Below are positions 33,165 to 60,191 of a stretch of 64,000 nucleotides of DNA, piece after piece (the stretch's first letter is position 1; each line of letters opens with the position of its first letter). Both the position numbers and the translations under genes were made by a program. The DNA lies in assembly GCA_947184155.2 (NCBI GenBank), contig CAMXCT020002358.1, forward strand, positions 35,001 to 99,000, read 5' to 3'. Source of the stretch: Cladocopium goreaui. Lineage: Eukaryota; Sar; Dinophyceae; Suessiales; Symbiodiniaceae. Below the pieces are notes generated by a model. The model did no database searches and was not told where the DNA came from. It saw only the letters and a list, made by a program, of their open reading frames with translations.

Positions 33165-34080
33165 GCAAACACTTTTACACACAAAAGCTTTTACACACAG
33201 AAGCTTTTACACACAGACGCTTTTACACAGACACTTTTACACACAAAGTTTTTACCCACAGAAGTTTTTACATACAGAAGCTTTTACACACAAACGCTTT
33301 TACACAGATGCTTTTACACACAGACACTTCTACACAGACACTTTTACACAAAGCTTTTACCCACAGAAGCTTTTGCATACAGAAGCTTTTACACACATAC
33401 GCTTTTACACAGATGCTTTTACACAGACACTTTTACACACAGACACTTTTACACACAGACACTTTTAACAAAGAGCCTTTTACACACAGGAGCTTTTACA
33501 CACAGAAACATTTACACGCAGACGCTTTTACACACAAACACTTTTACACACAAACATCTTTACACAGCACTCTTACACACAAACCCGTTTACACAGACAC
33601 ACTTTTACACACAGAAGCTTTTACACACAGACACTTTTACACAGATGCACTTTTACACACAAACACTTTTACACACAAACATCTTTACACAGAAACACTT
33701 TTACACACAAACACTTTTACACACAAACATCTTTACACAGAAACACTCTTACACACAAACCCGTTTACACACAAAGACTTTTACACACAGAAGCTTATAC
33801 ACACACATTGCCGCTGTCACACAGAAACACCTTTTACACAGAAACCCTTCTGCACTCACACCACTTTACACAGAGACGCTTTAACACACAAACCCTTTTA
33901 CACACAGACACGTTTACACACAAAAGCTTTTACACACAAACCCTTTTACACAGATTCACTTTTACACACAAACACTTTTACACACAAACATCTTTACACA
34001 GAAACACTCTTACACACAAACCCGTTTACACACAAAGACTTTTACACACAGAAGCTTTTACACACAGACACTTTTACACA
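33165..34080. repeat. 15-16 bp minisatellite CTTTTACACACAGAAG
   Basis: About 60 variants of CTTTTACACACAGAAG over 0.9 kb. One plus frame stays open for 318 codons (HTEAFTHRSFYTQKLL-like) because the unit lacks stops in that frame. I recall such peptides from Symbiodiniaceae gene sets, but this is not evidence of a functional protein. Confidence 0.9.
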
Positions 34081-34083
34081 GAT

Positions 34084-34732
34084 GCTCCGGGACAAGTAAA
34101 ATCGCAATTTTACCTCATTTTTTGACGATCAACACTCATTTCGTGCGAAAGGGTTGCTCCGGGACAAGTAAAATCGCAATTTTACCTCAGTTTTTGACGA
34201 TCAACACTCATTTCGTGCGAAAGGGTTGCTCCGGGACAAGTAAATTCGCAATTTTACTTCAGTTTTTGACGATCGACGCTCATTTCGTGTGAAAGAGTTG
34301 CTCCGGGACAAGTAAAATTGCAATTTTACCTCAGTTTTTGACGATCGACGCTCATTTCGTGCGAAAGGGTTGCTCCGGGACAAGTAAACTCGCAATTTTA
34401 CTTCAGTTTTGGCCGATCGAACCTCATTTCGTGCGAAAGGGTTGCTCCGGCACAAGTAAAATTGCAATTTTTCCTCAGTTTTGGCCGATCGAACCTCATT
34501 TCGTGCGAAAGGGTTGCTCCGGCACAAGTAAAATCGCAATTTTACTTCAGTTTTTGATGATCGACTCTCATTTCGTGCGAAAAGGTTGCTCCAGGACAAG
34601 TAAAATCGCAATTTTACTTCAGTTTTTGCCGATCGACCCTCATTTCGTGCGAAAGGGTTGCTCCAGGACAAGTAAAATCGCAATTTTACCTCAGTTTTTG
34701 CCGATCGACCCTCATTTCGTGCGAAAGGGTTC
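34084..34732. repeat. 72 bp satellite, 9 copies
   Basis: The unit runs from GCTCCGGGACAAGTAAAAT to TTTCGTGCGAAAGGGTT. 72 is a multiple of 3, so both strands give 24-residue repeat peptides (plus: CSGTSKIAILPQFWPIEPHF...; minus: NPFARNEGRSAKTEV...). The unit contains an AAAATCGCAATTTTA near-palindrome. Confidence 0.92.
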
Positions 34733-34771
34733 ACGTTTCGTGACTCCCCGCCGGCACCACCCTCGGCCTAA

Positions 34772-34989
34772 CGAGAGAAAGATAAAGAAGGCGAGAGAGA
34801 GAAAAGGGAGAGAGAAAGGAGAGAGAGAAAGGAGAGAGGAAAGAGGAGAGAGAGAGAGAGAGAGAAAGGAGAGAGGAAAGAGGAGAGAGAGAGAGAGAAA
34901 GGAGAGAGGAAAGAGGAGACAGAGAGAGAGAGAGAGTGAGTATGTGAAGGTGTGAAGGTGTGAAGGTGTGAAGGTGTGAGTGCGAGTGC

Positions 34990-35020
<31 letters not shown>

Positions 35021-35022
35021 GG
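34772..35022. repeat. GAGAGA purine microsatellite
   Basis: GAGAGAGAAAGGAGAGAGGA-type runs with embedded GTGTGAAG repeats, almost purely purine on the plus strand. Confidence 0.9.
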
Positions 35023-35280
35023 TGTGAGTATGTGAAGATGTGAAGATGAGCAGTTGTGAAGATGAGAAGATATGAAGATAAGAAGATGTGAAGATGAGCA
35101 GATGTGAAGATGAGCAGATGTGAAGATGAGAAGATGTGAAGATGAGAAGATGTGAAGATGAGAAGGTGTGAAGATGAGAAGATGTGAAGATGAGAAGATG
35201 TGAAGATGAGCAGATGTGAAGATGAGAAGATGTGAAGATGAGAAGATGTGAGAGAAGGTGTGAAGATGAGAAGATGAGAT
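35023..35280. repeat. GATGTGAAGATGAGAA 18 bp minisatellite
   Basis: GATGTGAAGATGAGAA/GCA units repeated about 14 times. This is the last satellite of the stack before the minus-strand gene. Confidence 0.9.
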
Positions 35281-35401
35281 ACAGACCCCCACTAGACTAT
35301 TGGAAGAACCCTGCGCTCAGACGCTCTCGGGAAAAATATTGAAACATATTGAAAAATATTGAAAAATACTCTCGGACTGGCTGACAAGTGCTGAGCCTGT
35401 C

Positions 35402-35725
35402 CTTTCCCGCAGCCTGTGCTGAAGCTATGGCCACTGCTGCTTTGGACTCCTCAAGTTCTGTTGTCAGAGTAGCCTCAAATGCTTGCGCTTCTTGTAGCTT
35501 TGTTTGTGTTGCAGCTTCAGATGCCAGTACTTGCGTGAGCCTCGCTTGTAAAGTATCGCTGGCTTCTGCTTGTTCATCTAACAATTGCCTTTGTTGATAA
35601 AGTTGGTCTTCAAGCGATGCTGATGTGTTCTTCTGTTCTTCCAAGGCTTTCTCCAGGGCTGTCTTTGACGCCTCCAAGGAATTTGCAGCTGATTTGGCGG
35701 TCTCCAGCTCTTTTTGCAGAGCTTC
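35402..35725 (-). CDS. Exon 11 of the multi-HAD gene, coiled coil (108 codons)
   Basis: Phase 0 on both sides: acceptor GGCAG|GAAGC, donor GGGAAAG|GACAG. The frame begins EALQKELETAKSAANSLEAS and ends AIASAQAAGK: a long Ala/Glu/Gln/Lys coiled coil. It is part of an 886 bp unit that also holds exon 10. No downstream exon is visible before the satellites, so the model stops here. Confidence 0.65.
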
Positions 35726-38700
35726 CTGCCAAACTGGATTAACCCAACAAGTGTATGCGCACAAGCCAACTCAACACTAACCAAGACACTTGATACATTC
35801 ACGTTGTATCACTATTTCAAAATATTTCGAATGCCTTTGGATCGTTTAAGCGCGACGCCCATCAGAAACCACGAAAAGACTTTCATGGAGTTCCAAGATA
35901 GCCTGGATCATCGACCTAGGACTTGTTCAATTCATTTCGTATCATGGAATCAGAGGAAAGATCCTCAAACCAAATCGTCCAAATACATCCAAATACCAGG
36001 CAACCATTCTAAGAGTTCTAGTCAAAGGAGACCTTTGGACTCATCCCCATCTGTGGGAACATCTAACTAGGTGGCCTTGCTTGCTGACACTATTTACTGA
36101 GGAAACCGCTGCCATCTCAATATGTCGAAATTGGGTACCAAAGAATTGGATGATGCAACAGTTGCTGATGATCAGCACTTTAACCGGACAGCTCTTGTGG
36201 TATCCTGACACCCAATGTGAAACATATTAAATATTGAAAAAATATTGAAAAATACTCTCGGACTGGCTGACAAGTGCTGAGCCTGTCCTTTCCCGCAGCC
36301 TGTGCTGAAGCTATGGCCACTGCTGCTTTGGACTCCTCAAGTTCTGTTGTCAGAGTAGCCTCAAATGCTTGCGCTTCTTGTAGCTTTGTTTGTGTTGCAG
36401 CTTCAGATGCCAGTACTTGCGTGAGCCTCGCTTGTAAAGTATCGCTGGCTTCTGCTTGTTCATCTAACAATTGCCTTTGTTGATAAAGTTGGTCTTCAAG
36501 CGATGCTGATGTGTTCTTCTGTTCTTCCAAGGCTTTCTCCAGGGCTGTCTTTGACGCCTCCAAGGAATTTGCAGCTGATTTGGCGGTCTCCAGCTCTTTT
36601 TGCAGAACTTCCTGCCAAACTGGATTAACCCAACAAGTGTATGCGCACAAGCCAACTCAACACTAACCAAGACACTTGATACATTCACGTTGTATCACTA
36701 TTTCAAAATATTTCGAATGCCTTTGGATCGTTTAAGCGCGACGCCCATCAGAAACCACGAAAAGACTTTCATGGAGTTCCAAGATAGCCTGGATCATCGA
36801 CCTAGGACTTGTTCAATTCATTTCGTATCATGGAATCAGAGGAAAGATCCTCAAACCAAATCGTCCAAATACATCCAAATACCAGGCAACCATTCTAAGA
36901 GTTCTAGTCAAAGGAGACCTTTGGACTCATCCCCATCTGTGGGAACATCTAACTAGGTGGCCTTGCTTGCTGACACTATTTACTGAGGAAACCGCTGCCA
37001 TCTCAATATGTCGAAATTGGGTACCAAAGAATTGGATGATGCAACAGTTGCTGATGATCAGCACTTTAACCGGACAGCTCTTGTGGTATCCTGACACCCA
37101 ATGTGAAACATATTAAATATTGAAAAAATATTGAAAAATACTCTCGGACTGGCTGACAAGTGCTGAGCCTGTCCTTTCCCGCAGCCTGTGCTGAAGCTAT
37201 GGCCACTGCTGCTTTGGACTCCTCAAGTTCTGTTGTCAGAGTAGCCTCAAATGCTTGCGCTTCTTGTAGCTTTGTTTGTGTTGCAGCTTCAGATGCCAGT
37301 ACTTGCGTGAGCCTCGCTTGTAAAGTATCGCTGGCTTCTGCTTGTTCATGGGATGTAGCTGGGTCTTTTTGTGCTCTGGTGGCCGATCCTTTTGGCTCAG
37401 CCGGTGCAGTTGCAACAGCAGAGGGCATTTGCTTGGGAGCTGCTGTGCTCTTGGCTTGGGCTGCTTCTTTTTGGACTCCTACCATGGATCGCAACTCCTG
37501 CATTTCTCCTGCAGTCATGCCCTTCCGCTCTGACACAAAGACACTGCGACAAACACCTTTGACAGAAGCTATCTCTGCTGCGTCATCCTCCACCAAAGCA
37601 GCCTCGTTCGTGCTCAGACCTGCCTGAGACATCAGTGCTTGAATCAGATTTACCTTCATGTCTGGAAGTTGACAGTCTGGAGTACCTTCCAACTCGGATG
37701 GCTGCTTGTTCTCTTGATCGAACTCAGACTCACCATAGAACTGGCCCAACATGCCAAAGACCTTCTCGAAAAATCCCAGTAGACCCTCTTCTTGGAGTAA
37801 AAAGCGGCAGGCACCCACATTGCCCTTGGTTATGATTGTGAGCTTGGCGCCAGCTGCTTTCAAATCGGAGAAAAAAACACGTAGCTCTTCCACTCGGTCA
37901 GGTCCTGCCCAATGTGCTACCGTCACCCGGCCAAAAAGAAGAAACACCCAATATGGAGAAAACACACATCCAACTCATCCAACGAACTAGCCTTGATGCA
38001 TGTTCAATATCATTCATATCGAACTCAAAAAGAAGAAACACCAATGGAGAAAACACACACTGATCCAATGAAAAAATGAGACCCTGAAAGGAGCAAAATC
38101 AAGTTAGGTCAACAAAGATGTATCAGTTGAACAGTAACCAAAAAGACACGAGGCGTCGCATACTCTCACTTGCTTTCAGTACGCATCATAGCAACAGACT
38201 CCAACACAAACTAGTCTCAGGAACAACCACAAACAATTGCTTCAATTGCCTCAAATCAACGCTGTAGAATTTCAGTTTGAGTTTGGATTCAAATGTGTAA
38301 AGGAGGAGTGTGCAAGAACAATATGAAGGAGATTCAAATTCCTCACAAGTTCAGACTCTCAGAAAGGTCCTCCCAAAGCACCAGCTGTCCACGATGCAGC
38401 CCCCTTCACACCAGCTGGACAAGGCACCACATGGCCATTGGGCTGGTACTGATACTGAGTTGAATCATTCAGAAGCTTCAACCGATGAATCTGTCCCCGT
38501 TCCGACAAAGAATGTTGTCCTGCAACACCAGGCTCCCATCCAGCCAGTTGCTTGAAGACGTGCACTTTGGAAATCGTCTGGTCGAAATCAAAATACACAT
38601 GCTTCACCGATGAAGACGCCTCTTTCGCAACTTTTGGCTCAGCCGGTGCAGTTGCAACAGCGGAGGGCATTTGCTTGGGAGCTGCTGTGCTCTTGGCTTG

Positions 38701-41700
38701 GGCTGCTTCTTTTTGGACTCCTACCATGGATCTCAACTCCTGCATTTCTCCTGCAGTCATGCCCTTCCGCTCTGACACAAAGACACTGCGACAAACACCT
38801 TTGACAGAAGCTATCTCTGCTGCATCATCCTCCACCAAAGCAGCCTCGTTCGTGCTCAGACCTGCCTGAGACATCAGTGCTTGAATCAGATTTACCTTCA
38901 TGTCTGGAAGTTGACAGTCTGGAGTACCTTCCAACTCGGATGGCTGCTTGTTCTCTTGATCGAACTCAGACTCACCATAGAACTGGCCCAACATGCCAAA
39001 GACCTTCTCGAAAAATCCCAGTAGACCCTCTTCTTGGAGTAAAAAGCGGCAGGCACCCACATTGCCCTTGGTTATGATTGTGAGCTTGGCGCCAGCTGCT
39101 TTCAAATCGGAGAAAAAAACACGTAGATCTTCCACTCGGTCAGGTCCTGCCCAATGTGCTACCGTCACCCGGCCAAAAAGAAGAAACACCCAATATGGAG
39201 AAAACACACATCCAACTCATCCAACGAACTAGCCTTGATGCATGTTCAATATCATTCATATCGAACTCAAAAAGAAGAAACACCAATGGAGAAAACACAC
39301 ACTGATCCAATGAAAAAATGAGACCCTGAAAGGAGCAAAATCAAGTTAGGTCAACAAAGATGTATCAGTTGAACAGTAACCAAAAAGACACGAGGCGTCG
39401 CATACTCTCACTTGCTTTCAGTACGCATCATAGCAACAGACTCCAACACAAACTAATCTCAGGAACAACCACAAACAATTGCTTCAATTGCCTCAAATCA
39501 ACGCTGTAGAATTTCAGTTTGAGTTTGGATTCAAATGTGTAAAGGAAGGAGTGTGCAAGAACAATATGAAGGAGATTCAAATTCCTCACAAGTTCAGACT
39601 CTCAGAAAGGTCCTCCCAAAGCACCAGCTGTCCACGATGCAGCCCCCTTCACACCAGCTGGACAAGGCACCACATGGCCATTGGGCTGGTACTGATACTG
39701 AGTTGAATCATTCAGAAGCTTCAACCGATGAATCTGTCCCCGTTCCGACAAAGAATGTTGTCCTGCAACACCAGGCTCCCATCCAGCCAGTTGCTTGAAG
39801 ACGTGCACTCTGGAAATCGTCTGGTCGAAATCAAAATACACATGCTTCACCGATGAAGACGCCTCTTTCGCAACTTTTGGCTCAGCCGGTGCAGTTGCAA
39901 CAGCGGAGGGCATTTGCTTGGGAGCTGCTGTGCTCTTGGCTTGGGCTGCTTCTTTTTGGACTCCTACCATGGATCTCAACTCCTGCATTTCTCCTGCAGT
40001 CATGCCCTTCCGCTCTGACACAAAGACACTGCGACAAACACCTTTGACAGAAGCTATCTCTGCTGCGTCATCCTCCACCAAAGCAGCCTCGTTCGTGCTC
40101 AGACCTGCCTGAGACATCAGTGCTTGAATCAGATTTACCTTCATGTCTGGAAGTTGACAGTCTGGAGTACCTTCCAACTCGGATGGCTGCTTGTTCTCTT
40201 GATCGAACTCAGACTCACCATAGAACTGGCCCAACATGCCAAAGACCTTCTCGAAAAATCCCAGTAGACCCTCTTCTTGGAGTAAAAAGCGGCAGGCACC
40301 CACATTGCCCTTGGTTATGATTGTGAGCTTGGCGCCAGCTGCTTTCAAATCGGAGAAAAAAACACGTAGCTCTTCCACTCGGTCAGGTCCTGCCCAATGT
40401 GCTACCGTCACCCGGCCAAAAAGAAGAAACACCCAATATGGAGAAAACACACATCCAACTCATCCAACGAACTAGCCTTGATGCATGTTCAATATCATTC
40501 ATATCGAACTCAAAAAGAAGAAACACCAATGGAGAAAACACACACTGATCCAATGAAAAAATGAGACCCTGAAAGGAGCAAAATCAAGTTAGGTCAACAA
40601 AGATGTATCAGTTGAACAGTAACCAAAAAGACACGAGGCGTCGCATACTCTCACTTGCTTTCAGTACGCATCATAGCAACAGACTCCAACACAAACTAGT
40701 CTCAGGAACAACCACAAACAATTGCTTCAATTGCCTCAAATCAACGCTGTAGAATTTCAGTTTGAGTTTGGATTCAAATGTGTAAAGGAGGAGTGTGCGA
40801 GAACATGAAGGAGATTCAAATTCCTCACAAGTTCAGACTCTCAGAACGGTCCTCCCAAAGCACCAGCTGTCCACGATGCAGCCCCCTTCACACCAGCTGG
40901 ACAAGGCACCACATGGCCATTGGGCTGGTACTGATACTGAGTTGAATCATTCAGAAGCTTCAACCGATGAATCTGTCCCCGTTCCGACAAAGAATGTTGT
41001 CCTGCAACACCAGGCTCCCATCCAGCCAGTTGCTTGAAGACGTGCACTTTGGAAATCGTCTGGTCGAAATCAAAATACACATGCTTCACCGATGAAGACG
41101 CCTCTTTCGCAACTTTTGCCTCAGCCGGTGCAGCTGCAGTTTTAGCCTTCGGTGTGGCTTCTGCTTTGAAGACTCCACTGAAACCTTCCGGTGGTGGAGG
41201 CGGTGCTTTGCCCTTGGCTGCTGCATGACAAATTCCTGTGAAACCAGTGGGAGGTGGCGGCGGCACAGCTGCTGATTGCACTTTGGATGTTGCTGGAATT
41301 TCCTTGGGAGCTGCTGTGCTCTTGGCTTGGGCTACTTCTTTTTGGACTCCTACCATGGATCTCAACTCCTGCATTTCTCCTGCAGTCATGCCCTTCCGCT
41401 CTGACACAAAGACACTGCGACAAACACCTTTGACAGAAGCTATCTCTGCTGCGTCATCCTCCACCAAAGCAGCCTCGTTCGTGCTCAGACCTGCCTTAGA
41501 CATCAGTGCTTGAATCAGATTTACCTTCATGTCTGGAAGTTGACAGTCTGGAGTACCTTCCAACTCGGATGGCTGCTTGTTCTCTTGATCGAACTCAGAC
41601 TCACCATAGAACTGGCCCAACATGCCAAAGACCTTCTCGAAAAATCCCAGTAGATCCTCTTCTTGGAGTAAAAAGCGGCAGGCACCCACATTGCCCTTGG

Positions 41701-44700
41701 TTATGATTGTGAGCTTGGCGCCAGCTGCTTTCAAATCGGAGAAAAAAACACGTAGCTCTTCCACTCGGTCTGGTCCTGCCCAATGTGCTACCGTCACCCG
41801 ACCAAAAAGAAGAAACACCAATGGAGAAAACACACACTGATCCAATGAAAAAATGAGACCCTGAAAGGAGCAAAATCAAGTTAGGTCAACAAAGATGTAT
41901 CAGTTGAACAGTAACCAAAAAGACACGAGGCGTCGCACACTCTCACTTGCTTTCAGTACGCATCATAGCAACAGACTCCAACACAAACTAATCTCAGGAA
42001 CAACCACAAACAATTGCTTCAATTGCCTCAAATCAACGCTGTAGAATTTCAGTTTGAGTTTGGATTCAAACGTTCAAAGAAGGATTGTGCAAGAACAGTA
42101 TGAAGGAGACTGACGGAGGTATCAAATTCCTCAAAAGTTCAGACTCTCAGAACGGTCCTCCCAAAGCACCAGCTGTCCACGATGCAGCCCCCTTCACACC
42201 AGCTGGACAAGGCACCACATGGCCATTGGGCTGGTACTGATACTGAGTTGAATCATTCAGAAGCTTCAACCGATGAATCTGTCCCCGTTCCGACAAAGAA
42301 TGTTGTCCTGCAACACCAGGCTCCCATCCAGCCAGTTGCTTGAAGACGTGCACTTTGGAAATCGTCTGGTCGAAATCAAAATACACATGCTTCACCGGTG
42401 AAGACGCCTCTTTCGCAACTTTTGGCTCAGCCGGTGCAGTTGCAACAGCGGAGGGCATTTGCTTGGGAGCTGCTGTGCTCTTGGCTTGGGCTGCTTCTTT
42501 TTGGACTCCTACCATGGATCTCAACTCCTGCATTTCTCCTGCAGTCATGCCCTTCCGCTCTGACACAAAGATACTGCGACAAACACCTTTGACAGAAGCT
42601 ATCTCTGCTGCATCATCCTCCACCAAAGCAGCCTCGTTCGTGCTCAGACCTGCCTGAGACATCAGTGCTTGAATCAGATTTACCTTCATGTCTGGAAGTT
42701 GACAGTCTGGAGTACCTTCCAACTCGGATGGCTGCTTGTTCTCTTGATCGAACTCAGACTCACCATAGAACTGGCCCAACATGCCAAAGACCTTCTCGAA
42801 AAATCCCAGTAGACCCTCTTCTTGGAGTAAAAAGCGGCAGGCACCCACATTGCCCTTGGTTATGATTGTGAGCTTGGCGCCAGCTGCTTTCAAATCGGAG
42901 AAAAAAACACGTAGATCTTCCACTCGGTCAGGTCCTGCCCAATGTGCTACCGTCACCCGGCCAAAAAGAAGAAACACCCAATATGGAGAAAACACACATC
43001 CAACTCATCCAACGAACTAGTCTTGATGCATGTTCAATATCATTCATATCCAACTATACCGTCTCAAGAGGCATTCATTGCTGGCCCTTCTGTCAGCCGA
43101 TCCAACAAGAATGAGCACCCTGAAAGGAGCAACATCAAGCTAGGCCAATAAAAATGTATCAGTTGAACAGTAACCAAAAAGACACGAGGGCTCGCACACT
43201 CTCGCTTGCTTTAAGTACACATCATAGCAACAGGCTCCAAAACTCACGGCTTCAAAACTCCCAAAGGAGCAAGTAAACACAACCAGTTTGGATTCAAACG
43301 TTCAAAGAAGGATTGTGCAAGAACAGTATGAAGGAGACTGACGGAGGTATCAAATTCCTCACAAGTTCAGACTCTCAGAAAGGTCCTCCCAAAGCACCAG
43401 CTGTCCACGATGCAGCCCCCTTCACACCAGCTCGACAAGGCACCACATGGCCATTGGGCTGGTACTGATACTGAGATGAATCATTCAGAAGCTTCAACCG
43501 ATGAATCTGCCCCCGTTCCGACAAAGAATGTTGCCCTGCAACACCAGGCTCCCATCCAGCCAGTTGCTTGAAGACGTGCACTTTGGAAATCGTCTGGTCG
43601 AAATCAAAATACACATGCTTCACCGATGAAGACGCCTCTTTCGCAACTTTTGGCTCAGCCGGTGCAGCTGCAGCTTTAGCCTTCGGTGTGGCTTCTGCTT
43701 TGAAGACTCCACTGAAACCTTCCGGTGGTGGAGGCGGTGCTTTGCCCCTGGCGGCTGCATGACAAATTCCTGCGAAACCAGTGGGAGGTGGCGGCGGCAC
43801 AGCTGCTGATTGCACTTTGGATGTTGCTGGAATTTCCTTGGGAGCTGCTGTGCTCTTGGCTTGGGCTGCTTCTTTTTGGACTCCTACCATGGATCTCAAC
43901 TCCTGCATTTCTCCTGCAGTCATGCCCTTCCGCTCTGACACAAAGACACTGCGACAAACACCTTTGACAGAAGCTATCTCTGCTGCATCATCCTCCACCA
44001 AAGCAGCCTCGTTCGTGCTCAGACCTGCCTGAGACATCAGTGCTTGAATCAGATTTACCTTCATGTCTGGAAGTTGACAGTCTGGAGTACCTTCCAACTC
44101 GGATGGCTGCTTGTTCTCTTGATCGAACTCAGACTCACCATAGAACTGGCCCAACATGCCAAAGACCTTCTCGAAAAATCCCAGTAGACCCTCTTCTTGG
44201 AGTAAAAAGCGGCAGGCACCCACATTGCCCTTGGTTATGATTGTGAGCTTGGCGCCAGCTGCTTTCAAATCGGAGAAAAAAACACGTAGATCTTCCACTC
44301 GGTCAGGTCCTGCCCAATGTGCTACCGTCACCCGGCCAAAAAGAAGAAACACCCAATATGGAGAAAACACACATCCAACTCATCCAACGAACTAGTCTTG
44401 ATGCATGTTCAATATCATTCATATCCAACTATACCGTCTCAAGAGGCATTCATTGCTGGCCCTTCTGTCAGCCGATCCAACAAGAATGAGCACCCTGAAA
44501 GGAGCAACATCAAGCTAGGCCAATAAAAATGTATCAGTTGAACAGTAACCAAAAAGACACGAGGGCTCGCACACTCTCGCTTGCTTTAAGTACACATCAT
44601 AGCAACAGGCTCCAAAACTCACGGCTTCAAAACTCCCAAAGGAGCAAGTAAACACAACCAGTTTGGATTCAAACGTTCAAAGAAGGATTGTGCAAGAACA

Positions 44701-47700
44701 GTATGAAGGAGACTGAAGGAGTGATCAAATTCCTCACAAGTTCAGACTCTCAGAAAGGTCCTCCCAAAGCACCAGCTGTCCACGATGCAGCCCCCTTCAC
44801 ACCAGCTGGACAAGGCACCACATGGCCATTGGGCTGGTACTGATACTGAGATGAATCATTCAGAAGCTTCAACCGATGAATCTGCCCCCATTCAGAAGCT
44901 TCAACCGATGAATCTGCCCCCGTTCCGACAAAGAATGTTGCCCTGCAACACCAGGCTCCCATCCAGCCAGTTGCTTGAAGACGTGCACTTTGGAAATCGT
45001 CTGGTCGAAATCAAAATACACATGCTTCACCGATGAAGACGCCTCTTTGGCAACTTTTGGCTCAGCCGGTGCAGCTGCAGCTTTAGCCTTCGGTGTGGCT
45101 TTTGCTTTGAAGACTCCACTGAAACCTTCCGGTGGTGGAGGCGGTGCTTTGCCCCTGGCGGCTGCATGACAAATTCCTGCGAAACCAGTGGGAGGTGGCG
45201 GCGGCACAGCTGCTGATTGCACTTTGGATGTTGCTGGAATTTCCTTGGGAGCTGCTGTGCTCTTGGCTTGGGCTGCTTCTTTTTGGACTCCTACCATGGA
45301 TCTCAACTCCTGCATTTCTCCTGCAGTCATGCCCTTCCGCTCTGACACAAAGACACTGCGACAAACACCTTTGACAGAAGCTATCTCTGCTGCATCATCC
45401 TCCACCAAAGCAGCCTCGTTCGTGCTCAGACCTGCCTGAGACATCAGTGCTTGAATCAGATTTACCTTCATGTCTGGAAGTTGACAGTCTGGAGTACCTT
45501 CCAGCTCGGATGGCTGCTTGTTCTCTTGATCGAACTCAGACTCACCATAGAACTGGCCCAACATGCCAAAGACCTTCTCGAAAAATCCCAGTAGACCCTC
45601 TTCTTGGAGTAAAAAGCGGCAGGCACCCACATTGCCCTTGGTTATGATTGTGAGCTTGGCGCCAGCTGCTTTCAAATCTGAAAAAAAACCACGTAGCTCT
45701 TCCACTCGGTCTGGTCCTGCCCAATGTGCTACCGTCACCCGACCAAAAAGAAAAAAAACAGTACGGAGAAAACGCACATCCAACTCATCCAACGAACTAG
45801 TTTTGATGCATGTTCATATCATTCATATCCAACATTATCGAACTATATCGTCTCAAGAGGCATTCATTGCTGGCCCTTCTGTCAGCCGATCCAACAAGAA
45901 TGAGCACCCTGAAAGGAGCAACATCAAGCTAGGCCAATAAAGATGTATCAGTTGAACAGTAACCAAAAAGACACGAGGGGTCGCACACTCTCACTTGCTT
46001 TAAGTACACATCATAGCAACAGGCTCCAAAACTCACGCCTCCAAAACTCCCAATGGAGCAAGTAAACACAAACTGTTTGGATTCAAACGTTCAAAGAAGG
46101 GTTGTGCAAGAACAGTATGAAGGAGACTGAAGGAGTGATCAAATTCCTCACAAGTTCAGACTCTCAGAAAGGTCCTCCCAAAGCACCAGCTGTCCACGAT
46201 GCAGCCCCCTTCACACCAGCTCGACAAGGCACCACATGGCCATTGGGCTGGTACTGATACTGAGATGAATCATTCAGAAGCTTCAACCGATGAATCTGCC
46301 CCCGTTCCGACAAAGAATGTTGCCCTGCAACACCAGGCTCCCATCCAGCCAGTTGCTTGAAGACGTGCACTTTGGAAATCGTCTGGTCGAAATCAAAATA
46401 CGCATGCTTCACCGATGAAGACGCCTCTTTCGCAACTTTTGGCTCAGCCGGTGCAGCTGCAGTTTTAGCCTTCGGTGTGGCTTCTGCTTTGAAGACTCCA
46501 CTGAAACCTTCCGGTGGTGGAGGCGGTGCTTTGCCCTTGGCGGCTGCATGACAAATTCCTGCGAAACCAGTGGGAGGTGGCGGCGGCACAGCTGCTGATT
46601 GCACTTTGGATGTTGCTGGAATTTCCTTGGGAGCTGCTGTGCTCTTGGCTTGGGCTGCTTCTTTTTGGACTCCTACCATGGATCTCAACTCCTGCATTTC
46701 TCCTGCAGTCATGCCCTTCCGCTCTGACACAAAGACACTGCGACAAACACCTTTGACAGAAGCTATCTCTGCTGCATCATCCTCCACCAAAGCAGCCTCG
46801 TTCGTGCTCAAACCTGCCTTAGACATCAGTGCTTGAATCAGATTTACCTTCATGTCTGGAAGTTGACAGTCTGGAGTACCTTCCAGCTCGGATGGCTGCT
46901 TGTTCTCTTGATCGAACTCAGACTCACCATAGAACTGGCCCAACATGCCAAAGACCTTCTCGAAAAATCCCAGTAGACCCTCTTCTTGGAGTAAAAAGCG
47001 GCAGGCACCCACATTGCCCTTGGTTATGATTGTGAGCTTGGCGCCAGCTGCTTTCAAATCTGAAAAAAAACCACGTAGCTCTTCCACTCGGTCTGGTCCT
47101 GCCCAATGTGCTACCGTCACCCGACCAAAAAGAAAAAAAACAGTACGGAGAAAACGCACATCCAACTCATCCAACGAACTAGTTTTGATGCATGTTCATA
47201 TCATTCATATCCAACATTATCGAACTATATCGTCTCAAGAGGCATTCATTGCTGGCCCTTCTGTCAGCCGATCCAACAAGAATGAGCACCCTGAAAGGAG
47301 CAACATCAAGCTAGGCCAATAAAGATGTATCAGTTGAACAGTAACCAAAAAGACACGAGGGGTCGCACACTCTCACTTGCTTTAAGTACACATCATAGCA
47401 ACAGGCTCCAAAACTCACGCCTCCAAAACTCCCAATGGAGCAAGTAAACACAAACTGTTTGGATTCAAACGTTCAAAGAAGGATTGTGCAAGAACAGTAT
47501 GAAGGAGACTGAAGGAGTGATCAAATTCCTCACAAGTTCAGACTCTCAGAAAGGTCCTCCCAAAGCACCAGCTGTCCACGATGCAGCCCCCTTCACACCA
47601 GCTCGACAAGGCACCACATGGCCATTGGGCTGGTACTGATACTGAGATGAATCATTCAGAAGCTTCAACCGATGAATCTGCCCCCGTTCCGACAAAGAAT

Positions 47701-48004
47701 GTTGCCCTGCAACACCAGGCTCCCATCCAGCCAGTTGCTTGAAGACGTGCACTTTGGAAATCGTCTGGTCGAAATCAAAATACACATGCTTCACCGATGA
47801 AGACGCCTCTTTCGCAACTTTTGGCTCAGCCGGTGCAGCTGCAGTTTTAGCCTTCGGTGTGGCTTCTGCTTTGAAGACTCCACTGAAACCTTCCGGTGGT
47901 GGAGGCGGTGCTTTGCCTGGTGCACCAGGTGCAAATGCGTCAAGTTGTGCTCGCGGCTCTCGCGGCGGAGCTACAAGTCCGCTCTGTCTCGGAGGGATGG
48001 CCAT
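35402..48004 (-). CDS. Multi-HAD-domain gene built by tandem exon duplication (11-exon model)
   Basis: Proposed joins, 5' to 3': 48004-47557, 47098-46175, 45716-44761, 44309-43386, 42934-42158, 41775-40852, 40389-39613, 39146-38370, 37904-37174, 36611-36288, 35725-35402. Each internal HAD exon carries the C-terminal half of one HAD-like domain, a linker, then the N-terminal half of the next; splicing restores HAD motifs I, II and IV in order. Exon lengths (448, 924, 956, 924, 777, 924, 777, 777, 731, 324, 324) preserve phase everywhere except the 956 exon. Introns are 382-562 nt with AG|GA at both ends. HAD proteins are typically phosphatases using the first Asp of DxDxT; substrate unknown. 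As read, a frameshift in exon 3 would end translation after 739 residues. No 3' terminal exon was found. Confidence 0.72.
35403..37180. repeat. 886 bp tandem duplication of the coiled-coil exon and intron
   Basis: 35402-36287 and 36288-37173 are nearly identical over exon and intron (EALQKE against EVLQKE at the exon start). A third, partial copy ends at the fusion point 37349. Confidence 0.85.
36288..36611 (-). CDS. Exon 10 of the multi-HAD gene, coiled coil (108 codons)
   Basis: EVLQKELETAKSAANSLEAS to QAAGK, with heptad-like spacing throughout (LYQQRQLLDEQAEASDTLQA in the middle). 324 nt, phase 0 on both sides, so any number of copies keeps the frame. Confidence 0.7.
37174..37904 (-). CDS. 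Exon 9 of the multi-HAD gene: HAD C-half fused to coiled coil
   Basis: The first 37904-37350 encodes the HAD C-half (GPDRVEELRVFFSDLKAAGA, LTIITKGN, LVEDDAAEI) and a linker ending KGSATRAQKDPATSH. From 37349 the sequence is identical to the inner part of exons 10 and 11 (EQAEASDTLQARL). It enters in phase 1 and leaves in phase 0 (731 nt), the phase change needed to link the two exon families. Confidence 0.7.
38370..39146 (-). CDS. Exon 8 of the multi-HAD gene, short type (259 codons)
   Basis: HAD C-half, short linker (AAPKQMPSAVATAPAEPK), then HAD N-half with YFDFDQTISKVHVFKQ. The short type lacks the 49-residue proline-rich linker. Variant: EDLRVFF. Acceptor GGGCAG|GACCTG, donor GGGAG|GACCTT. 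Confidence 0.72.
39613..40389 (-). CDS. Exon 7 of the multi-HAD gene, short type (259 codons)
   Basis: As exon 8 but EELRVFF and TISRVHVF (R for K after motif I). HAD motif II Thr is at exon residue 26 and the motif IV Asp pair at 107-108. Confidence 0.72.
40852..41775 (-). CDS. Exon 6 of the multi-HAD gene, long type (308 codons)
   Basis: Contains the long linker with two PPPPP runs (AAVPPPPPTGFTGICHAAAK, KAPPPPPEGFSGVFKAEA). Variants: LQEEDLLGFF, ALMSKAGL, PAEAKVAK. Motif I lies at about exon residue 235. The preceding intron is the shortest (382 nt). Confidence 0.72.
42158..42934 (-). CDS. Exon 5 of the multi-HAD gene, short type (259 codons)
   Basis: Variants: CRSIFVSERK and ASSPVKHVYFDFDQ. 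Same splice sites as the other copies. It lies between two long-type exons, so the types are interspersed. Confidence 0.72.
43386..44309 (-). CDS. Exon 4 of the multi-HAD gene, long type (308 codons)
   Basis: Variants: EDLRVFF, TGFAGICHAAARGK and PCRAGVKG. All HAD motifs intact. Confidence 0.72.
44761..45716 (-). pseudogene. Exon 3 of the multi-HAD gene, frameshifted by a 32 bp duplication
   Basis: Long type, but 956 nt in place of 924. ATTCAGAAGCTTCAACCGAT plus 12 more bases is duplicated in tandem at about 44858-44921 (plus strand), so after RLKLLN the frame changes to GGRFIG and stops at 44869. The HAD C-half, linker and motif I (KHVYFDFDQTI) upstream of the break are intact. Confidence 0.7.
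46175..47098 (-). CDS. Exon 2 of the multi-HAD gene, long type (308 codons)
   Basis: Starts GPDRVEELRGFFSDLKAAGA; motif II in KLTIITKGNV, motif IV in LVEDDAAEIA. After the proline linker comes KHAYFDFDQTI (A where others have V). Variant ALMSKAGL. With exon 1 it completes the first HAD domain. Confidence 0.75.
47557..48004 (-). CDS. Exon 1 of the multi-HAD gene: start codon and first HAD N-half
   Basis: The ATG at 48004 opens MAIPPRQSGLVAPPREPRAQ, a unique leader that runs into the shared linker KAPPPPPEGFSGVFKAEA. DxDxT motif I is at residues 77-81 (YFDFDQTI). The exon ends ALGG in phase 1 at GGGAG|GACC. The first 30 residues match no other copy, which supports this as the true 5' exon. There is no signal peptide. 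Confidence 0.72.
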
Positions 48005-49596: not shown

Positions 49597-50667
49597 AAAC
49601 TTGTACTATTAATCACTATGTATGCTTATCCTTGACGTGCCGGTGGAAGTGCTGAGTACCAGCTCTGAAATTGACCGGTTCCATGCTTCTCTACTCTACC
49701 GTTTGAGCATCGTTTGAGCATCGTAAGAGCATAGTCAGCACAGTGTTCGCATGGAGCCATGGAGCCAGGGCCCTGCGGCCCTGCGCAATGGAAGAACTGC
49801 ACAAGCGGTAATGAAATTTATGGGAGAATGATGGAGAATGCGGAGAATGAGACGATAAATCACCTTGCCTGGCGGAACCAACTCAAATCTCATCACGGAT
49901 ACACCATGGCTATCCATGGCTGATCTTGCGCGAATCCAAGAGCGAAGAATAAACGAAACTGATACACGTAGTTCTGCTCCAAATGAAGCCACTTTTTCAA
50001 GCACTTCTCATGCTAGCAGAAAATGTGGAAAAAATATGGAACCTTAACCACCACATCCAAAGCACCCAGAAACAGGAGAATAGGGCCTCACATCTTTCCT
50101 TGTGGTATCGACCTGCACAATCTTTTCCGGCTAAAAACAGCAACGTCTTGCCAATGCAGGCGCAAAGAAAAAGGGATGTGAAAGGATAAAGGACATTCTT
50201 CAAACCCGAATATCCGCAATAATCACGAAGATTTGTGAAACACCTAATGGACGAAACTGACCACTCAAAATCAAAAGCAAACTAAAGCAAGATATCCGGG
50301 AAGTATATCCAGGAATGACTCGCTTGACACGCCATACCTGATCGCTGTTCTGCAGGTTGTCTGAGCCTCGAGACAATGGCATTTTGCATGTTTGCGCGCG
50401 TGTGTCACACAGTTCTCCTTTCAACACGAACAAGTCCAAGCAACAGCAATTGCGAATGATGCATTCAGGAGCACCTATGTGCTTGAGCTGCAGCCGTTCC
50501 TCGCAATGCGGGCATTTTTTCTTTCACCACGGCTCAAAAGTACACGAAGTGAGCTGACGTCTTCACAAGATTACCCTTAAAAATGCGCTGCCTGGCTGCA
50601 TCTCATCACGCAGCCGGAGAGCCGGGTAGAGCCGGGTAGAGCACAACCACAACTACAGACTTCCCCC

Positions 50668-52059
50668 TCACAAATTCACAGTTTTCCACAGCTGTTTCTT
50701 GTGATCTGGATGGCTTTTTGGGGCCCTCTTGGCCAAATGACACTTGGTGCCATTTCCACCATCCCCTGCCATGGTCAGCACATAGGTGGGATCAGCTGCC
50801 AAGGCGATGTAGCCGTCATGGAAGAGAAAGAGCTGGTTCTTCTCACATGGGTCACTGCGGCCATGTTCCTTCCAGAGATGCACCGGTTCACTGTCCGAAA
50901 GAGGATCCATAGGCCCGCTCTTCTTGGAGAACACGATGTCTGGCCGACTGCTCAGGCGGATTTTGCCGTCCGCAGACCACTTCCATACATTGTTGTCCAC
51001 GTGATCGTGGCCGGCCCCTCGTTTCTCCCACAAGTGAACCACGGTGCCATTGCGAGCATCGCGGGCGTGGCCCAAAGTGTGAATGCTGTGGCTGTCCCGT
51101 AGCACGGGAACGATCATCAAGCCCTTGCCAATCTCCACATCAGTGACAGGTGGCAAGGGCACCATCGCCCCACCCCACTGCGCAATGCATCGCACCATCG
51201 CCACAATATCATTTGTGTTGACCAAGGCGTCAATGGCACTGGCCCGGAAGGCTCCAGTGGGATCATAGTCTTGTGGCAGGTGGACCAGCTTCCCGGTGAG
51301 CCTCTGCCGACGATCTTCACTGAGACGGAGGAGCTTCATCATCCAAGACCACAAGGATGGGGCCAGCATGCCTCGCTTCTCAGCCTCATGGAGGACGCCG
51401 AGCTGGAGAACGAAGACAACCGGGGAAGGATATCCCGAGAGGGCATAGTAATCCAGAATTGCTGCCAAAGCATCGAGGGTCTCAGACGGTTTGGTGCTGG
51501 GCCCTTGTCGGAAGATGAAATTCAGGATGACCTCAGGTGAAGTGCCGGCCCTCAGCTTTCCAATGACAGCTTTCACCAGCGGCTTCTCGAAACCCGAGAG
51601 GAATCCGACAAGAAAGTTCTGACCCGCAGCGTAGCTTCCTTGGGTGCACAGAGTTTGGGCTTGGTCTGCCGCATGATCCATGCAAAAGCAGATCTCGTTG
51701 CTGGCTGTCCCCAACAAGATTTTCCCTTCTGTGCCAACCTGCTTCACCACAGTGATGGCGCTGCCCTCAGCAGTTTTCATCAAGCTTTGCCCCTGCACAG
51801 CGGCGTGGTCGACACCTTGATAGACTTCTTGCGCAGTGGCCTTCATCAAAAAATGGGCAAGCTGGGCACCATTCCCCATGACGTTCTGTGCATGCTGGGC
51901 ACCATTCAACATGACGTTGTTCACATGGTGGGCACCATTCCCAATGACGTTGTTCACATGGTGGGCACCATTCCCCATGACCTTGTTTGCCTCCGCGCCC
52001 ATGGGTTGGACCACATTCTTCACCTGTTGCTTGACAAATCCATTCCATGCATTGCCCAT
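50668..52059 (-). CDS. 11-mer-repeat and beta-trefoil-like protein, copy 1 (463 aa)
   Basis: A single open frame from ATG to TGA without introns. Residues 20-73 hold about four 11-residue repeats (GAHHVNNVIGN, GAHHVNNVMLN, GAQHAQNVMGN), the spacing of lipid-surface 11/3 helices. MGNAWN at the start could be N-myristoylated. Residues 150-300 are a helical region unlike anything I know. Residues about 305-461 have three QxW-like lobes (NNVWKW, NQLFLF, KKQLWK), as in ricin-type beta-trefoil lectin folds, so carbohydrate or lipid binding is a guess. This copy has Cys291 and Arg321 where the others have Arg and Leu. Confidence 0.75.
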   Translation of the reverse strand: MGNAWNGFVKQQVKNVVQPMGAEANKVMGNGAHHVNNVIGNGAHHVNNVMLNGAQHAQNVMGNGAQLAHFLMKATAQEVYQGVDHAAVQGQSLMKTAEGSAITVVKQVGTEGKILLGTASNEICFCMDHAADQAQTLCTQGSYAAGQNFLVGFLSGFEKPLVKAVIGKLRAGTSPEVILNFIFRQGPSTKPSETLDALAAILDYYALSGYPSPVVFVLQLGVLHEAEKRGMLAPSLWSWMMKLLRLSEDRRQRLTGKLVHLPQDYDPTGAFRASAIDALVNTNDIVAMVRCIAQWGGAMVPLPPVTDVEIGKGLMIVPVLRDSHSIHTLGHARDARNGTVVHLWEKRGAGHDHVDNNVWKWSADGKIRLSSRPDIVFSKKSGPMDPLSDSEPVHLWKEHGRSDPCEKNQLFLFHDGYIALAADPTYVLTMAGDGGNGTKCHLAKRAPKSHPDHKKQLWKTVNL

Positions 52060-52589
52060 GGCTGCGAATCGAGAGAAGGGTGAGCTTGGGTGAAGTCGCT
52101 GTTTAAAGAAAAGGCTCCGGAGGGCTGAAGATTCCTGAGAAACAATGTGGTCTCCAAGGCCCAGCTCATGATGCGTTCGGCCGGTACACCTTGTGCAGTG
52201 GATGCTGACTACACACGAATCTGTTGAGCTAGGCTAAGGATGCAACAGAGGCATCCAAGATAAAGGACCATCAGCATCTCATCATTGAAATCCACTGGCG
52301 AACTTCGAAGAAACCTTCCGCACCAATCAGCACGCAATCAGAACAGCCCAGAAATTCTGCCATGTTTGGGAAAAATACATAGGTTTAAACCACCGCACCC
52401 ACACTGAACACCCACTAAAGTCCACACTTTGCCGGAATGTTGCACTGTGGTTGCTTTCAAACATAAGCTCCTGGTTTCCAAAGAACAAAGCCGGATAGTT
52501 TCTGAGCTGTGAAAAGAGGCGATGAGGTATGATCAGAAGGCGTTGCGCACAAACAAGCGGCCATGCATTTTTGGGCCGCCCCAGACTTT

Positions 52590-52910
52590 TTGGGCTGCAA
52601 TTTTTCCCGGCAACTTGGGAACATGGAAGTATTTGGAAAGCTGGAACGTGGGAAGCTGGGGAATCTGGGATCTGGCACCTTTAGGAACCTGCGCACTTGG
52701 AAACCTAGGAATCTAGGACTTTGGGAACTTGGGACCCTTAACCTGACTTTGGAACCTTATCGTGGAACCTGACTTTGGATTTGTTTGTCGGCAGTTGGCA
52801 ACATTACTTGGGAACATTACTTGGGAATCTTGCATTCTTACTTGGGAATCTTATCTGGGAACTGGAAACAGCACTTGGGAACCTGGAACGTGTGTGGAAC
52901 TGCTTCGGAG
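52590..52910. repeat. TTGGGAAC-type degenerate minisatellite
   Basis: Repeated ACTTGGGAACNT/GCTGGAAC motifs upstream of the copy 1 gene. Recurs in units 2 (about 55936-56256) and 3 (about 59280-59600). A related TTGGAACGCT repeat is at 63440. Confidence 0.7.
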
Positions 52911-53254
52911 ACCTTTACCATGGCTGCAAACCCAAAGCATTGTGAGAAGGGTGTTTGGGAAGAGGTTGCCTGGTGGGAGGCTGGGGGATCTGGTGAAGCT
53001 GGAGACACCCCAAAGCATTCTGCTTTACCGACAAACAAGACCTTGAAACTTGCTCAGGCATAATGGAACGCGGAAGAAAAGAGGAGCGACAAAAAACGCC
53101 TGCCCATTTTCATTGGAGGAAAGCTGGTAGGTGAGAGGCGAGCGGTTGCAGAATTGTCGAGGCTGCCTCTGTGGGACATACGAACATACGAAACATGTCC
53201 AAAAAGGGAAACAGAAAATTCCTGGGCGTGAAAAAGAAAGACACGGCAGCAGAC

Positions 53255-56200
53255 TATCCAAGGCTGGTCTTGCGCGAATCCAAGAGCGAAGAATAAACGA
53301 AACTGATACACGTAGTTCTGCTCCAAATGAAGCCACTTTTTCAAGCACTTCTCATGCTAGCAGAAAATGTGGAAAAAATATGGAACCTTAACCACCACAT
53401 CCAAAGCACCCAGAAACAGGAGAATAGGGCCTCACATCTTTCCTTGTGGTATCGACCTGCACAATCTTTTCCGGCTAAAAACAGCAACGTCTTGCCAATG
53501 CAGGCGCAAAGAAAAAGGGATGTGAAAGGATAAAGGACATTCTTCAAACCCGAATATCCGCAATAATCACGAAGATTTGTGAAACACCTAATGGACGAAA
53601 CTGACCACTCAAAATCACTAAAGCAAACTAAAGCAAAATATCCGGGAAGTATATCCAGGAATGACTCGCTTGACACGCCATACCTGATCGCTGTTCTGCA
53701 GGTTGTCTGAGCCTCGAGACAATGGCATTTTGCATGTTTGCGCGCGTGTGTCACACAGTTCTCCTTTCAACACGAACAAGTCCAAGCAACAGCAATTGCG
53801 AATGATGCATTCAGGAGCACCTATGTGCTTGAGCTGCAGCCGTTCCTCGCAATGCGGGCATTTTTTCTTTCACCACGGCTCAAAAGTACACGAAGTGAGC
53901 TGACGTCTTCACAAGATTACCCTTAAAAATGCGCTGCCTGGCTGCATCTCATCACGCAGCCGGAGAGCCGGGTAGAGCCGGGTAGAGCACAACCACGACT
54001 ACAGACTTCCCCCTCACAAATTCACAGTTTTCCACAGCTGTTTCTTGTGATCTGGATGGCTTTTTGGGGCCCTCTTGGCCAAATGACACTTGGTGCCATT
54101 TCCACCATCCCCTGCCATGGTCAGCACATAGGTGGGATCAGCTGCCAAGGCGATGTAGCCGTCATGGAAGAGAAAGAGCTGGTTCTTCTCACATGGGTCA
54201 CTGCGGCCATGTTCCTTCCAGAGATGCACCGGTTCACTGTCCGAAAGAGGATCCATAGGCCCGCTCTTCTTGGAGAACACGATGTCTGGCCGACTGCTCA
54301 GGCGGATTTTGCCGTCCGCAGACCACTTCCATACATTGTTGTCCACGTGATCGTGGCCGGCCCCTCGTTTCTCCCACAAGTGAACCACGGTGCCATTGCG
54401 AGCATCGCGGGCGTGGCCCAAAGTGTGAATGCTGTGGCTGTCCAGTAGCACGGGAACGATCATCAAGCCCTTGCCAATCTCCACATCAGTGACAGGTGGC
54501 AAGGGCACCATCGCCCCACCCCACTGCGCAATGCGTCGCACCATCGCCACAATATCATTTGTGTTGACCAAGGCGTCAATGGCACTGGCCCGGAAGGCTC
54601 CAGTGGGATCATAGTCTTGTGGCAGGTGGACCAGCTTCCCGGTGAGCCTCTGCCGACGATCTTCACTGAGACGGAGGAGCTTCATCATCCAAGACCACAA
54701 GGATGGGGCCAGCATGCCTCGCTTCTCAGCCTCATGGAGGACGCCGAGCTGGAGAACGAAGACAACCGGGGAAGGATATCCCGAGAGGGCATAGTAATCC
54801 AGAATTGCTGCCAAAGCATCGAGGGTCTCAGACGGTTTGGTGCTGGGCCCTTGTCGGAAGATGAAATTCAGGATGACCTCAGGTGAAGTGCCGGCCCTCA
54901 GCTTTCCAATGACAGCTTTCACCAGCGGCTTCTCGAAACCCGAGAGGAATCCGACAAGAAAGTTCTGACCCGCAGCGTAGCTTCCTTGGGTGCACAGAGT
55001 TTGGGCTTGGTCTGCCGCATGATCCATGCAAAAGCAGATCTCGTTGCTGGCTGTCCCCAACAAGATTTTCCCTTCTGTGCCAACCTGCTTCACCACAGTG
55101 ATGGCGCTGCCCTCAGCAGTTTTCATCAAGCTTTGCCCCTGCACAGCGGCGTGGTCGACACCTTGATAGACTTCTTGCGCAGTGGCCTTCATCAAAAAAT
55201 GGGCAAGCTGGGCACCATTCCCCATGACGTTCTGTGCATGCTGGGCACCATTCAACATGACGTTGTTCACATGGTGGGCACCATTCCCAATGACGTTGTT
55301 CACATGGTGGGCACCATTCCCCATGACCTTGTTTGCCTCCGCGCCCATGGGTTGGACCACATTCTTCACCTGTTGCTTGACAAATCCATTCCATGCATTG
55401 CCCATGGCTGCGAATCGAGAGAAGGGTGAGCTTGGGTGAAGTCGCTGTTTAAAGAAAAGGCTCCGGAGGGCTGAAGATTCCTGAGAAACAATGTGGTCTC
55501 CAAGGCCCAGCTCATGATGCGTTCGGCCGGTACACCTTGTGCAGTGGATGCTGACTACACACGAATCTGTTGAGCTAGGCTAAGGATGCAACAGAGGCAT
55601 CCAAGATAAAGGACCATCAGCATCTCATCATTGAAATCCACTGGCGAACTTCGAAGAAACCTTCCGCACCAATCAGCACGCAATCAGAACAGCCCAGAAA
55701 TTCTGCCATGTTTGGGAAAAATACATAGGTTTAAACCACCGCACCCACACTGAACACCCACTAAAGTCCACACTTTGCCGGAATGTTGCACTGTGGTTGC
55801 TTTCAAACATAAGCTCCTGGTTTCCAAAGAACAAAGCCGGATAGTTTCTGAGCTGTGAAAAGAGGCGATGAGGTATGATCAGAAGGCGTTGCGCACAAAC
55901 AAGCGGCCATGCATTTTTGGGCCGCCCCAGACTTTTTGGGCTGCAATTTTTCCTGGCAACTTGGGAACATGGAAGTATTTGGAAAGCTGGAACGTGGGAA
56001 GCTGGGGAATCTGGGATCTGGCACCTTTAGGAACCTGCGCACTTGGAAACCTAGGAATATAGGACTTTGGGAACTTGGGACCCTTAACCTGACTTTGGAA
56101 CCTTATCGTGGAACCTGACTTTGGATTTGTTTGTCGGCAGTTGGCAACATTACTTGGGAACATTACTTGGGAATCTTGCATTCTTACTTGGGAATCTTAT

Positions 56201-56600
56201 CTGGGAACTGGAAACAGCACTTGGGAACCTGGAACGTGTGTGGAACTGCTTCGGAGACCTTTACCATGGCTGCAAACCCAAAGCATTGTGAGAAGGGTGT
56301 TTGGGAAGAGGTTGCCTGGTGGGAGGCTGGGGGATCTGGTGAAGCTGGAGACACCCCAAAGCATTCTGCTTTACCGACAAACAAGACCTTGAAACTTGCT
56401 CAGGCATAATGGAACGCGGAAGAAAAGAGGAGCGACGAAAAACGCCTGCCCATTTTCATTGGAGGAAAGCTGGTAGGTGAGAGGCGAGCGGTTGCAGAAT
56501 TGTCGAGGCTGCCTCTGTGGGACATGCGAACATACGAAACATGTCCAAAAAGGGAAACAGAAAATTCCTGGGCGTGAAAAAGAAAGAGACGGCAGCAGAC
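53255..56600. repeat. 3.35 kb gene-bearing tandem unit 2
   Basis: Nearly identical to unit 1 across gene and spacer. The few differences include a small insertion near 53620. Confidence 0.9.
54014..55405 (-). CDS. 11-mer-repeat and beta-trefoil-like protein, copy 2 (463 aa)
   Basis: Translation identical to copy 3; differs from copy 1 at residues 291 (Arg) and 321 (Leu). Same start context and same flanks, about 2 kb of spacer on each side. The copies are independent full-length genes, not exons: each has its own ATG and stop. Confidence 0.75.
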   Translation of the reverse strand: MGNAWNGFVKQQVKNVVQPMGAEANKVMGNGAHHVNNVIGNGAHHVNNVMLNGAQHAQNVMGNGAQLAHFLMKATAQEVYQGVDHAAVQGQSLMKTAEGSAITVVKQVGTEGKILLGTASNEICFCMDHAADQAQTLCTQGSYAAGQNFLVGFLSGFEKPLVKAVIGKLRAGTSPEVILNFIFRQGPSTKPSETLDALAAILDYYALSGYPSPVVFVLQLGVLHEAEKRGMLAPSLWSWMMKLLRLSEDRRQRLTGKLVHLPQDYDPTGAFRASAIDALVNTNDIVAMVRRIAQWGGAMVPLPPVTDVEIGKGLMIVPVLLDSHSIHTLGHARDARNGTVVHLWEKRGAGHDHVDNNVWKWSADGKIRLSSRPDIVFSKKSGPMDPLSDSEPVHLWKEHGRSDPCEKNQLFLFHDGYIALAADPTYVLTMAGDGGNGTKCHLAKRAPKSHPDHKKQLWKTVNL

Positions 56601-59933: not shown

Positions 59934-59934
59934 T

Positions 59935-60191
59935 GAGTTGCTGAACTCAGTGTGCGTCACTATCTGTAAATCATACAAGTACAGCAACAGCTCCTGATAC
60001 AGAGGCATGTAAGGATCGGGTTGGTTTGACAATTTGGACAGCCGTGCCTTGTTGTCGAGTAACCAATGAACCCAGTCATCTTCAGGCCTCGTAAGACCAA
60101 CACTAGCAGTAACGATGTGATCTTTCAAGCTTGGTTCCAAGGGACTGGTCCGCCTGTGAGGTGCGCTCTCGGGACACCCAAAGCTTCTCAT
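59935..60191 (-). pseudogene. Gene fragment cut by the array edge
   Basis: From the ATG at 60191 the frame reads MRSFGCPESAPHRRTSPLEP, later WVHWLLDNKARLSKLSNQ and YQELLLYLYDLQIVTHTEF. It is protein-like until the array boundary at about 59934 and then runs into spacer sequence. Either an exon or a gene truncated by the amplification. Product unknown. Confidence 0.4.

Follow-up and report, generated by a model that had tools for sequence, protein, structure and literature searches.

The window analysed here, 64,000 nucleotides (nt) of the Cladocopium goreaui contig CAMXCT020002358.1 (contig positions 35,001 to 99,000), carries on its minus strand, at window positions 35402-48004, one candidate gene composed of eight copies of a HAD-like domain and a coiled-coil tail. 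Each HAD domain is split by an intron, with motif I in one exon and motifs II-IV in the next (Table 1). The region is best read as a single gene made up of repeated HAD units, a reading to which we give a probability of about 0.65; transcription as a single unit, the exact splice positions and catalysis are predicted from the DNA. The first-pass annotation of this DNA had proposed one poly-HAD gene at these coordinates. Its boundaries and its count of eight domains hold, the motif strings were found in eight of eight domains, and a single gene is still the best interpretation, but the copy as assembled is frame-broken in exon 3.

Each open block of the array begins in the middle of a domain and ends with motif I of the next, as the first-pass annotation had noted, and in-frame ATG codons upstream were found in none of the eight units. 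When the reading frame is continued past the join at an exon end, a stop follows within four codons, and intron read-through was rejected on this ground. Exon 1 leaves phase 1 and exon 9 (1+731 = 732) ends in phase 0, matching the coiled-coil exons, which confirms the phase shift proposed earlier; reading continues in frame from exon 1 into exon 2 and from exon 9 into exon 10. Exon 1, with the N-terminus, and the hybrid exon 9 are present only once each, and no further copies of the HAD domain or of the coiled-coil exon were found in the window, where all other matches had E >= 2. The GC content is 51.4% in the coding parts and 42.4% in the introns, and Rfam at the gathering threshold returned no matches.

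The earlier claim that all internal exons are multiples of three, with 777 or 924 nt, applies to six of the seven internal HAD exons (exons 2-8), all of which start after a phase-1 joint; exon 3, with 956 nt, departs from it. The agreement of phases had been considered hard to obtain by chance. It is indeed not a product of chance, but neither is it independent from unit to unit, because the repeated exon halves are 97.7-100% identical in alignment and equal phases were inherited by copying. Less dependent on this copying are the two in-frame joins at exons 1-2 and 9-10, the motif strings retained in all eight domains, the codon variation among the copies described below, and the linker lengths: the 777- and 924-nt forms differ by a linker indel of 147 nt, a multiple of three, whereas the lengths of the introns differ by 1-84 nt irrespective of frame.

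In HAD proteins, motif I has the form DxDx(T/V) after a hydrophobic strand and is followed by motif II (T/S), motif III (K) and motif IV (an acidic pair). All eight joined domains contain HVYFDFDQTIS or a one-residue variant of it as motif I, and IITKG, MKV and VEDD as motifs II, III and IV, in this order. These motifs were assigned by eye, and the assignment is supported by alignment to a profile of six E. coli HADs, in which hhalign covered the joined domain from motif I to motif IV with a score of 28.05 (E 0.0015; best of 60 shuffles 16.69) and placed DFDQT on DADET of YjjG and TIITKGN on IITNG. A search of PDB sequences gave three matches, two of them to the P-type ATPase CopB (E 0.056 and 0.11), which we take to be a member of the HAD superfamily, and one to PINK1 (E 1.8). 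The domain is probably a HAD domain, and the units are predicted to be Mg-dependent phosphohydrolases with an aspartate nucleophile.

A number of results weigh against this assignment or against its use in support of the gene model. The comparison of the spliced product with HAD profiles, suggested as a check in the first-pass annotation, gave a match of the joined domain to PF00702 with E 2.7e-4, but at 21.8-22.0 bits it lies below the cut-off of 26.4 and spans motifs II-IV; PF13419 (E 0.011) reached 16.3-16.6 bits against a cut-off of 23.8. The two NCBIfam matches, TIGR02253 (HAD-type hydrolase; E 0.0022) and TIGR01454 (E 0.043), are weak and below cut-off too, although both are HAD-type families, one of them so named. 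Exon 1 alone, which holds motif I, matched no Pfam family. The hhalign probability was just 16.9%, the motif I half alone scored at shuffle level (16.29), and the unspliced order scored 28.04 versus 28.05 for the spliced one. With hmmsearch, the joined domain obtained 7.9 bits, the unspliced order 8.0 and motifs II-IV alone 8.8 (maximum of 300 shuffles, 3.2). Since the motif I half is at shuffle level and the unspliced order scores equally, the profile scores do not prove the exon join. Single-sequence structure prediction of exon 2 as encoded, that is, as a permuted HAD unit, yielded no usable model, with a predicted local distance difference test (pLDDT) value of 36.6. Scans for relatives outside the window, which detect close relatives only and covered collections without eukaryote genomes, yielded 5 pattern matches among viral contigs and 61 among genome contigs, none of which was confirmed by tblastn.

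The splice sites were read from the repeated boundaries. HAD introns 1-8 (458, 458, 451, 451, 382, 462, 466 and 465 nt) have the form GGGAG|GACC...GGGCAG|GACC (the bar marks the splice position), and the coiled-coil introns have the form AAAG|GACAGG...GGCAG|GAAG. On the AG|GA reading, all ten predicted introns thus begin with GA and end with AG before G. In most eukaryotes a GA donor would be unusual. Symbiodinium uses GC and GA donors as well as GT, and the terminal AG of its introns is often followed by G (PMC4083563); introns of the GC/GA-AG kind are put at 25-74% in Symbiodiniaceae (review, PMC11453091). The AG|GACC junctions of the first-pass annotation are present at eight donors and eight acceptors, but they are not the sole fit. 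The gene could instead have ordinary GT-AG introns with the donor ACAGCTG|GTGCTTTGG, 12 nt upstream of AG|GACC, which would join SWTAG to PDRVEE without GALG. This donor occurs in the same phase in eight of eight units and costs four residues; it leaves the HAD score unchanged (22.0 vs 21.8 bits), so the score cannot choose between the donors, nor did the heptad register at the coiled-coil joins, judged by a crude hydrophobicity score, discriminate between them. The GT site, however, lacks the usual GTRAG extension, and identically repeated boundaries have been noted for dinoflagellate introns (PMC7789003). As the coiled-coil introns also have AG|GA at both ends, we favour one GA rule for all introns and regard the GT donor as possible but rather unlikely; this reading would alter the junction and not the architecture, and it overlaps with the preferred one.

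When the first 60 nt of each of the ten introns are compared with its last 60 nt, the longest complementary words have 4-6 nt. Introners of the Amoebophrya type have additional inverted repeats of 8-20 nt (PMC4083563, PMC7789003), and because the complementary words between the ends of the present introns are this short, never exceeding 6 nt, we rejected the introner reading and do not call them introners. Each of the eight HAD introns carries, in its middle part, an acceptor-like CTCCTTTCAGGGT (47300-47288 in intron 1), which is not the predicted acceptor and may represent a relic or a site of trans-splicing. Two further points count against the gene model: many strongly expressed genes of dinoflagellates are poor in introns or lack them (review, PMC5029490), and a search of the window with a 15-nt piece of the spliced leader (3 mismatches allowed) found no excess of the relic, which has been reported for dinoflagellates but is not universal (2 matches vs 3.96 expected).

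An objection to an intact gene comes from exon 3. Here a tandem duplication with a 32-nt unit, seen also by alignment, brings the exon to 956 nt, shifts the frame and creates a premature stop at 44871-44869, so that the joined frame ends within domain 3, after 739 residues. As assembled, two complete HAD domains are encoded ahead of this stop, and ten of the eleven exons fit a description of the array as units repeated in an uninterrupted open frame. The duplication may be real, allelic or an assembly slip. Should the copy be decaying or wrongly assembled, as a recent expansion whose translation has ceased or is only partial, the duplication would be a trace of decay or an assembly error, and the true number of units may differ. 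Apart from the frameshift, such an origin would agree with the near-identity of the units, which is complete in the last part of exon 9 and in intron 9 when compared with exon 10 and intron 10, and with the further tandem arrays and satellites that adjoin the gene. It is nevertheless unlikely, given that all exons except exon 3 are open and keep the frame, that the motif strings are retained in all eight domains, and that the codon variants among the copies (9 synonymous, 11 non-synonymous) correspond to a ratio of non-synonymous to synonymous variation, pN/pS, of 0.37 (Fisher p 0.029; the motif I half of exon 3 was excluded, and variants shared by descent are not independent).

The exon structure also suggests how the frameshift might be tolerated. 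Since six of the seven internal HAD exons are multiples of three and all seven lie between phase-1 joints, skipping one of them keeps the frame and, as read from the exon anatomy, removes exactly one domain's worth of sequence, with whole domains on both sides. Once exon 3 is omitted, the other ten exons form a stop-free frame of 2310 codons with seven HAD domains, so that a transcript lacking exon 3 would avoid the frameshift and encode these seven. In one dinoflagellate, 77% of the alternative splicing events are exon skips (review, PMC11453091). That splicing sets the number of phosphatase-like domains, up to eight, and buffers frameshifts in single units is a tentative proposal, which we put forward with considerable doubt.

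It is very improbable that the array consists of independent short genes in tandem, with trans-splicing of each at the conserved CTCCTTTCAG within the presumed intron and an end at the stop just past the donor: tandem arrays with spliced-leader trans-splicing are known in dinoflagellates (PMC11453091) and CTCCTTTCAGGGT is present in all eight HAD introns, but no unit has an in-frame ATG upstream of the conserved block, the first one after it lies past motif II, so that the products would be permuted or partial domains, and exon 1 and the exon 9 hybrid are single-copy, as expected of the ends of one gene.

In the single-gene reading, unequal crossing-over within the linkers describes the growth of the array better than the copying of whole exons does; of the tandem exon duplication proposed in the first-pass annotation, the repetition of units stands. 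Exons 1 and 9 share an exact 21-mer, CTGCACCGGCTGAGCCAAAAG, in their linkers. Exons 5, 7 and 8 resemble exon 9 before this 21-mer and exon 1 after it, a pattern that crossing-over at the shared 21-mer would give, and exons 2, 3, 4 and 6 have the longer linker. The HAD introns other than intron 5 (1-4 and 6-8) fall into two groups with 80-82% identity between the groups; intron 5 is a mosaic, resembling the first group at its start and the second thereafter, and lacks a stretch near its 3' end. The divergence of the introns is arranged in blocks and the synonymous divergence of the exons is low, suggesting that homogenisation or block replacement took part. The last 174 nt of exon 9 equal the end of exon 10 (174/174) and intron 9 equals intron 10 (562/562), so that the coiled-coil tail must have been duplicated very recently. 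The ancestor could have been a single HAD-like domain with one intron, followed by the coiled coil. Linkers rich in alanine and proline flank the domain on both sides, and unequal crossing-over between them would have joined the 3' exon of one copy, in frame, with the 5' exon of the following copy, so that each internal exon came to encode motifs II-IV, a linker and motif I in that order; repeated rounds would have led to eight units. Splicing would then join each motif I half with the next motifs II-IV half into a string of HAD domains, and the product would be a set of HAD-like phosphohydrolase domains on flexible proline/alanine linkers, ending in a coiled coil that would serve assembly or anchoring.

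Table 1. Predicted exons, representative introns and the exon 3 duplication of the candidate poly-HAD gene (window positions)
Feature	Position	Strand	Description
Exon 1	47557..48004	-	448 nt; ATG, proline-rich N-terminus, linker, HAD 1 motif I; leaves phase 1
Intron 1	47099..47556	-	AG|GACC...GCAG|GACC; model for introns 1-8
Exon 2	46175..47098	-	924 nt; HAD 1 motifs II-IV, long linker, HAD 2 motif I
Exon 3	44761..45716	-	956 nt; HAD 2 motifs II-IV, long linker, HAD 3 motif I; frame broken
Tandem duplication in exon 3	44857..44925	-	32-nt unit, 2.2 copies
Exon 4	43386..44309	-	924 nt; HAD 3 motifs II-IV, long linker, HAD 4 motif I
Exon 5	42158..42934	-	777 nt; HAD 4 motifs II-IV, short linker, HAD 5 motif I
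Exon 6	40852..41775	-	924 nt; HAD 5 motifs II-IV, long linker, HAD 6 motif I
Exon 7	39613..40389	-	777 nt; HAD 6 motifs II-IV, short linker, HAD 7 motif I
Exon 8	38370..39146	-	777 nt; HAD 7 motifs II-IV, short linker, HAD 8 motif I
Exon 9	37174..37904	-	731 nt; HAD 8 motifs II-IV, linker, coiled-coil start
Intron 9	36612..37173	-	562 nt; AG|GACAGG...GCAG|GAAG; identical to intron 10
Exon 10	36288..36611	-	324 nt; coiled coil
Intron 10	35726..36287	-	562 nt; identical to intron 9
Exon 11	35402..35725	-	324 nt; coiled coil
Possible C-terminal extension of exon 11	35297..35401	-	34 codons, then stop 35299-35297, if no further splicing

Directly downstream of exon 11 lies a block of simple satellites (33166-35276, with 16-nt, 72-nt and 8-nt units), and exons beyond exon 11 may be hidden because this block adjoins it. 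Another tandem array, with a 483-nt unit in 7.4 copies and 97% matches, occupies 19522-23111. On the other side of the gene, the longest open reading frames at 50-63 kb are also on the minus strand, and three near-identical tandem genes adjoin the HAD array: 50600-60640 consists of a unit of about 3.345 kb repeated three times head to tail, with 99.3-99.5% identity between copies, and every copy has a minus-strand reading frame of 521 residues that has 11-residue repeats near its N-terminus. The shared strand and the neighbouring tandem genes, together with the donor usage, the repeated intron boundaries and the GC contents, make a dinoflagellate source likely but not certain. The first copy of this frame had no Pfam or NCBIfam match and a PDB match at chance level only. 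A minus-strand reading frame of 688 residues at 60810-62876 had no match in Pfam, NCBIfam or PDB.

The nearest known kind of gene is the dinoflagellate multi-coding-unit (polyprotein) gene, of which the present one looks like a variant with another domain and with units split across exons. The first-pass annotation knew of no described family with this architecture. No multi-HAD dinoflagellate protein was described among the matches listed from the Creative Commons (CC)-licensed literature, part of which was judged by title, but the gene fits the multi-coding-unit habit of dinoflagellates. Its motifs DFDQT, IITKG, K and VEDD stand in the order of the HAD superfamily (PF00702, PF13419) after splicing and give weak profile matches; it differs in scoring below the curated cut-offs and in having eight copies in one predicted chain. 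The introns resemble the dinoflagellate introns with GC or GA donors in the GA donor, the AG followed by G and the same motif at both ends (PMC4083563, PMC7789003). With the polyproteins of dinoflagellates, such as light-harvesting protein and luciferase, the predicted product shares several catalytic or binding units per chain; cleavage to single units has been described for those (PMC11453091). The repeated unit of the present chain is HAD-like.

The closest parallels are the multi-coding-unit genes of Prorocentrum cordatum for HSP70 and form II RuBisCO, the latter with models of up to 5197 residues (PMC10666404). As described in that source, they have near-identical units in one frame, separated by spacers and with no stops between them, and the HSP70 gene has introns. 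In the HSP70 gene, however, each exon contains a full unit, whereas here the units are intron-split and the internal exons straddle two of them; the present array also differs in its HAD-like domain and coiled-coil tail, and in being a gene model from DNA. The symmetrical exons offer a direct test of whether exon skipping sets the number of domains. If transcribed as one unit, the gene would place an enzyme-like family among the few multi-unit genes known from dinoflagellates and would suggest a different route to such genes, in which a gene with introns grows by unequal crossing-over within its linkers, in frame, and its exons come to straddle neighbouring domains.

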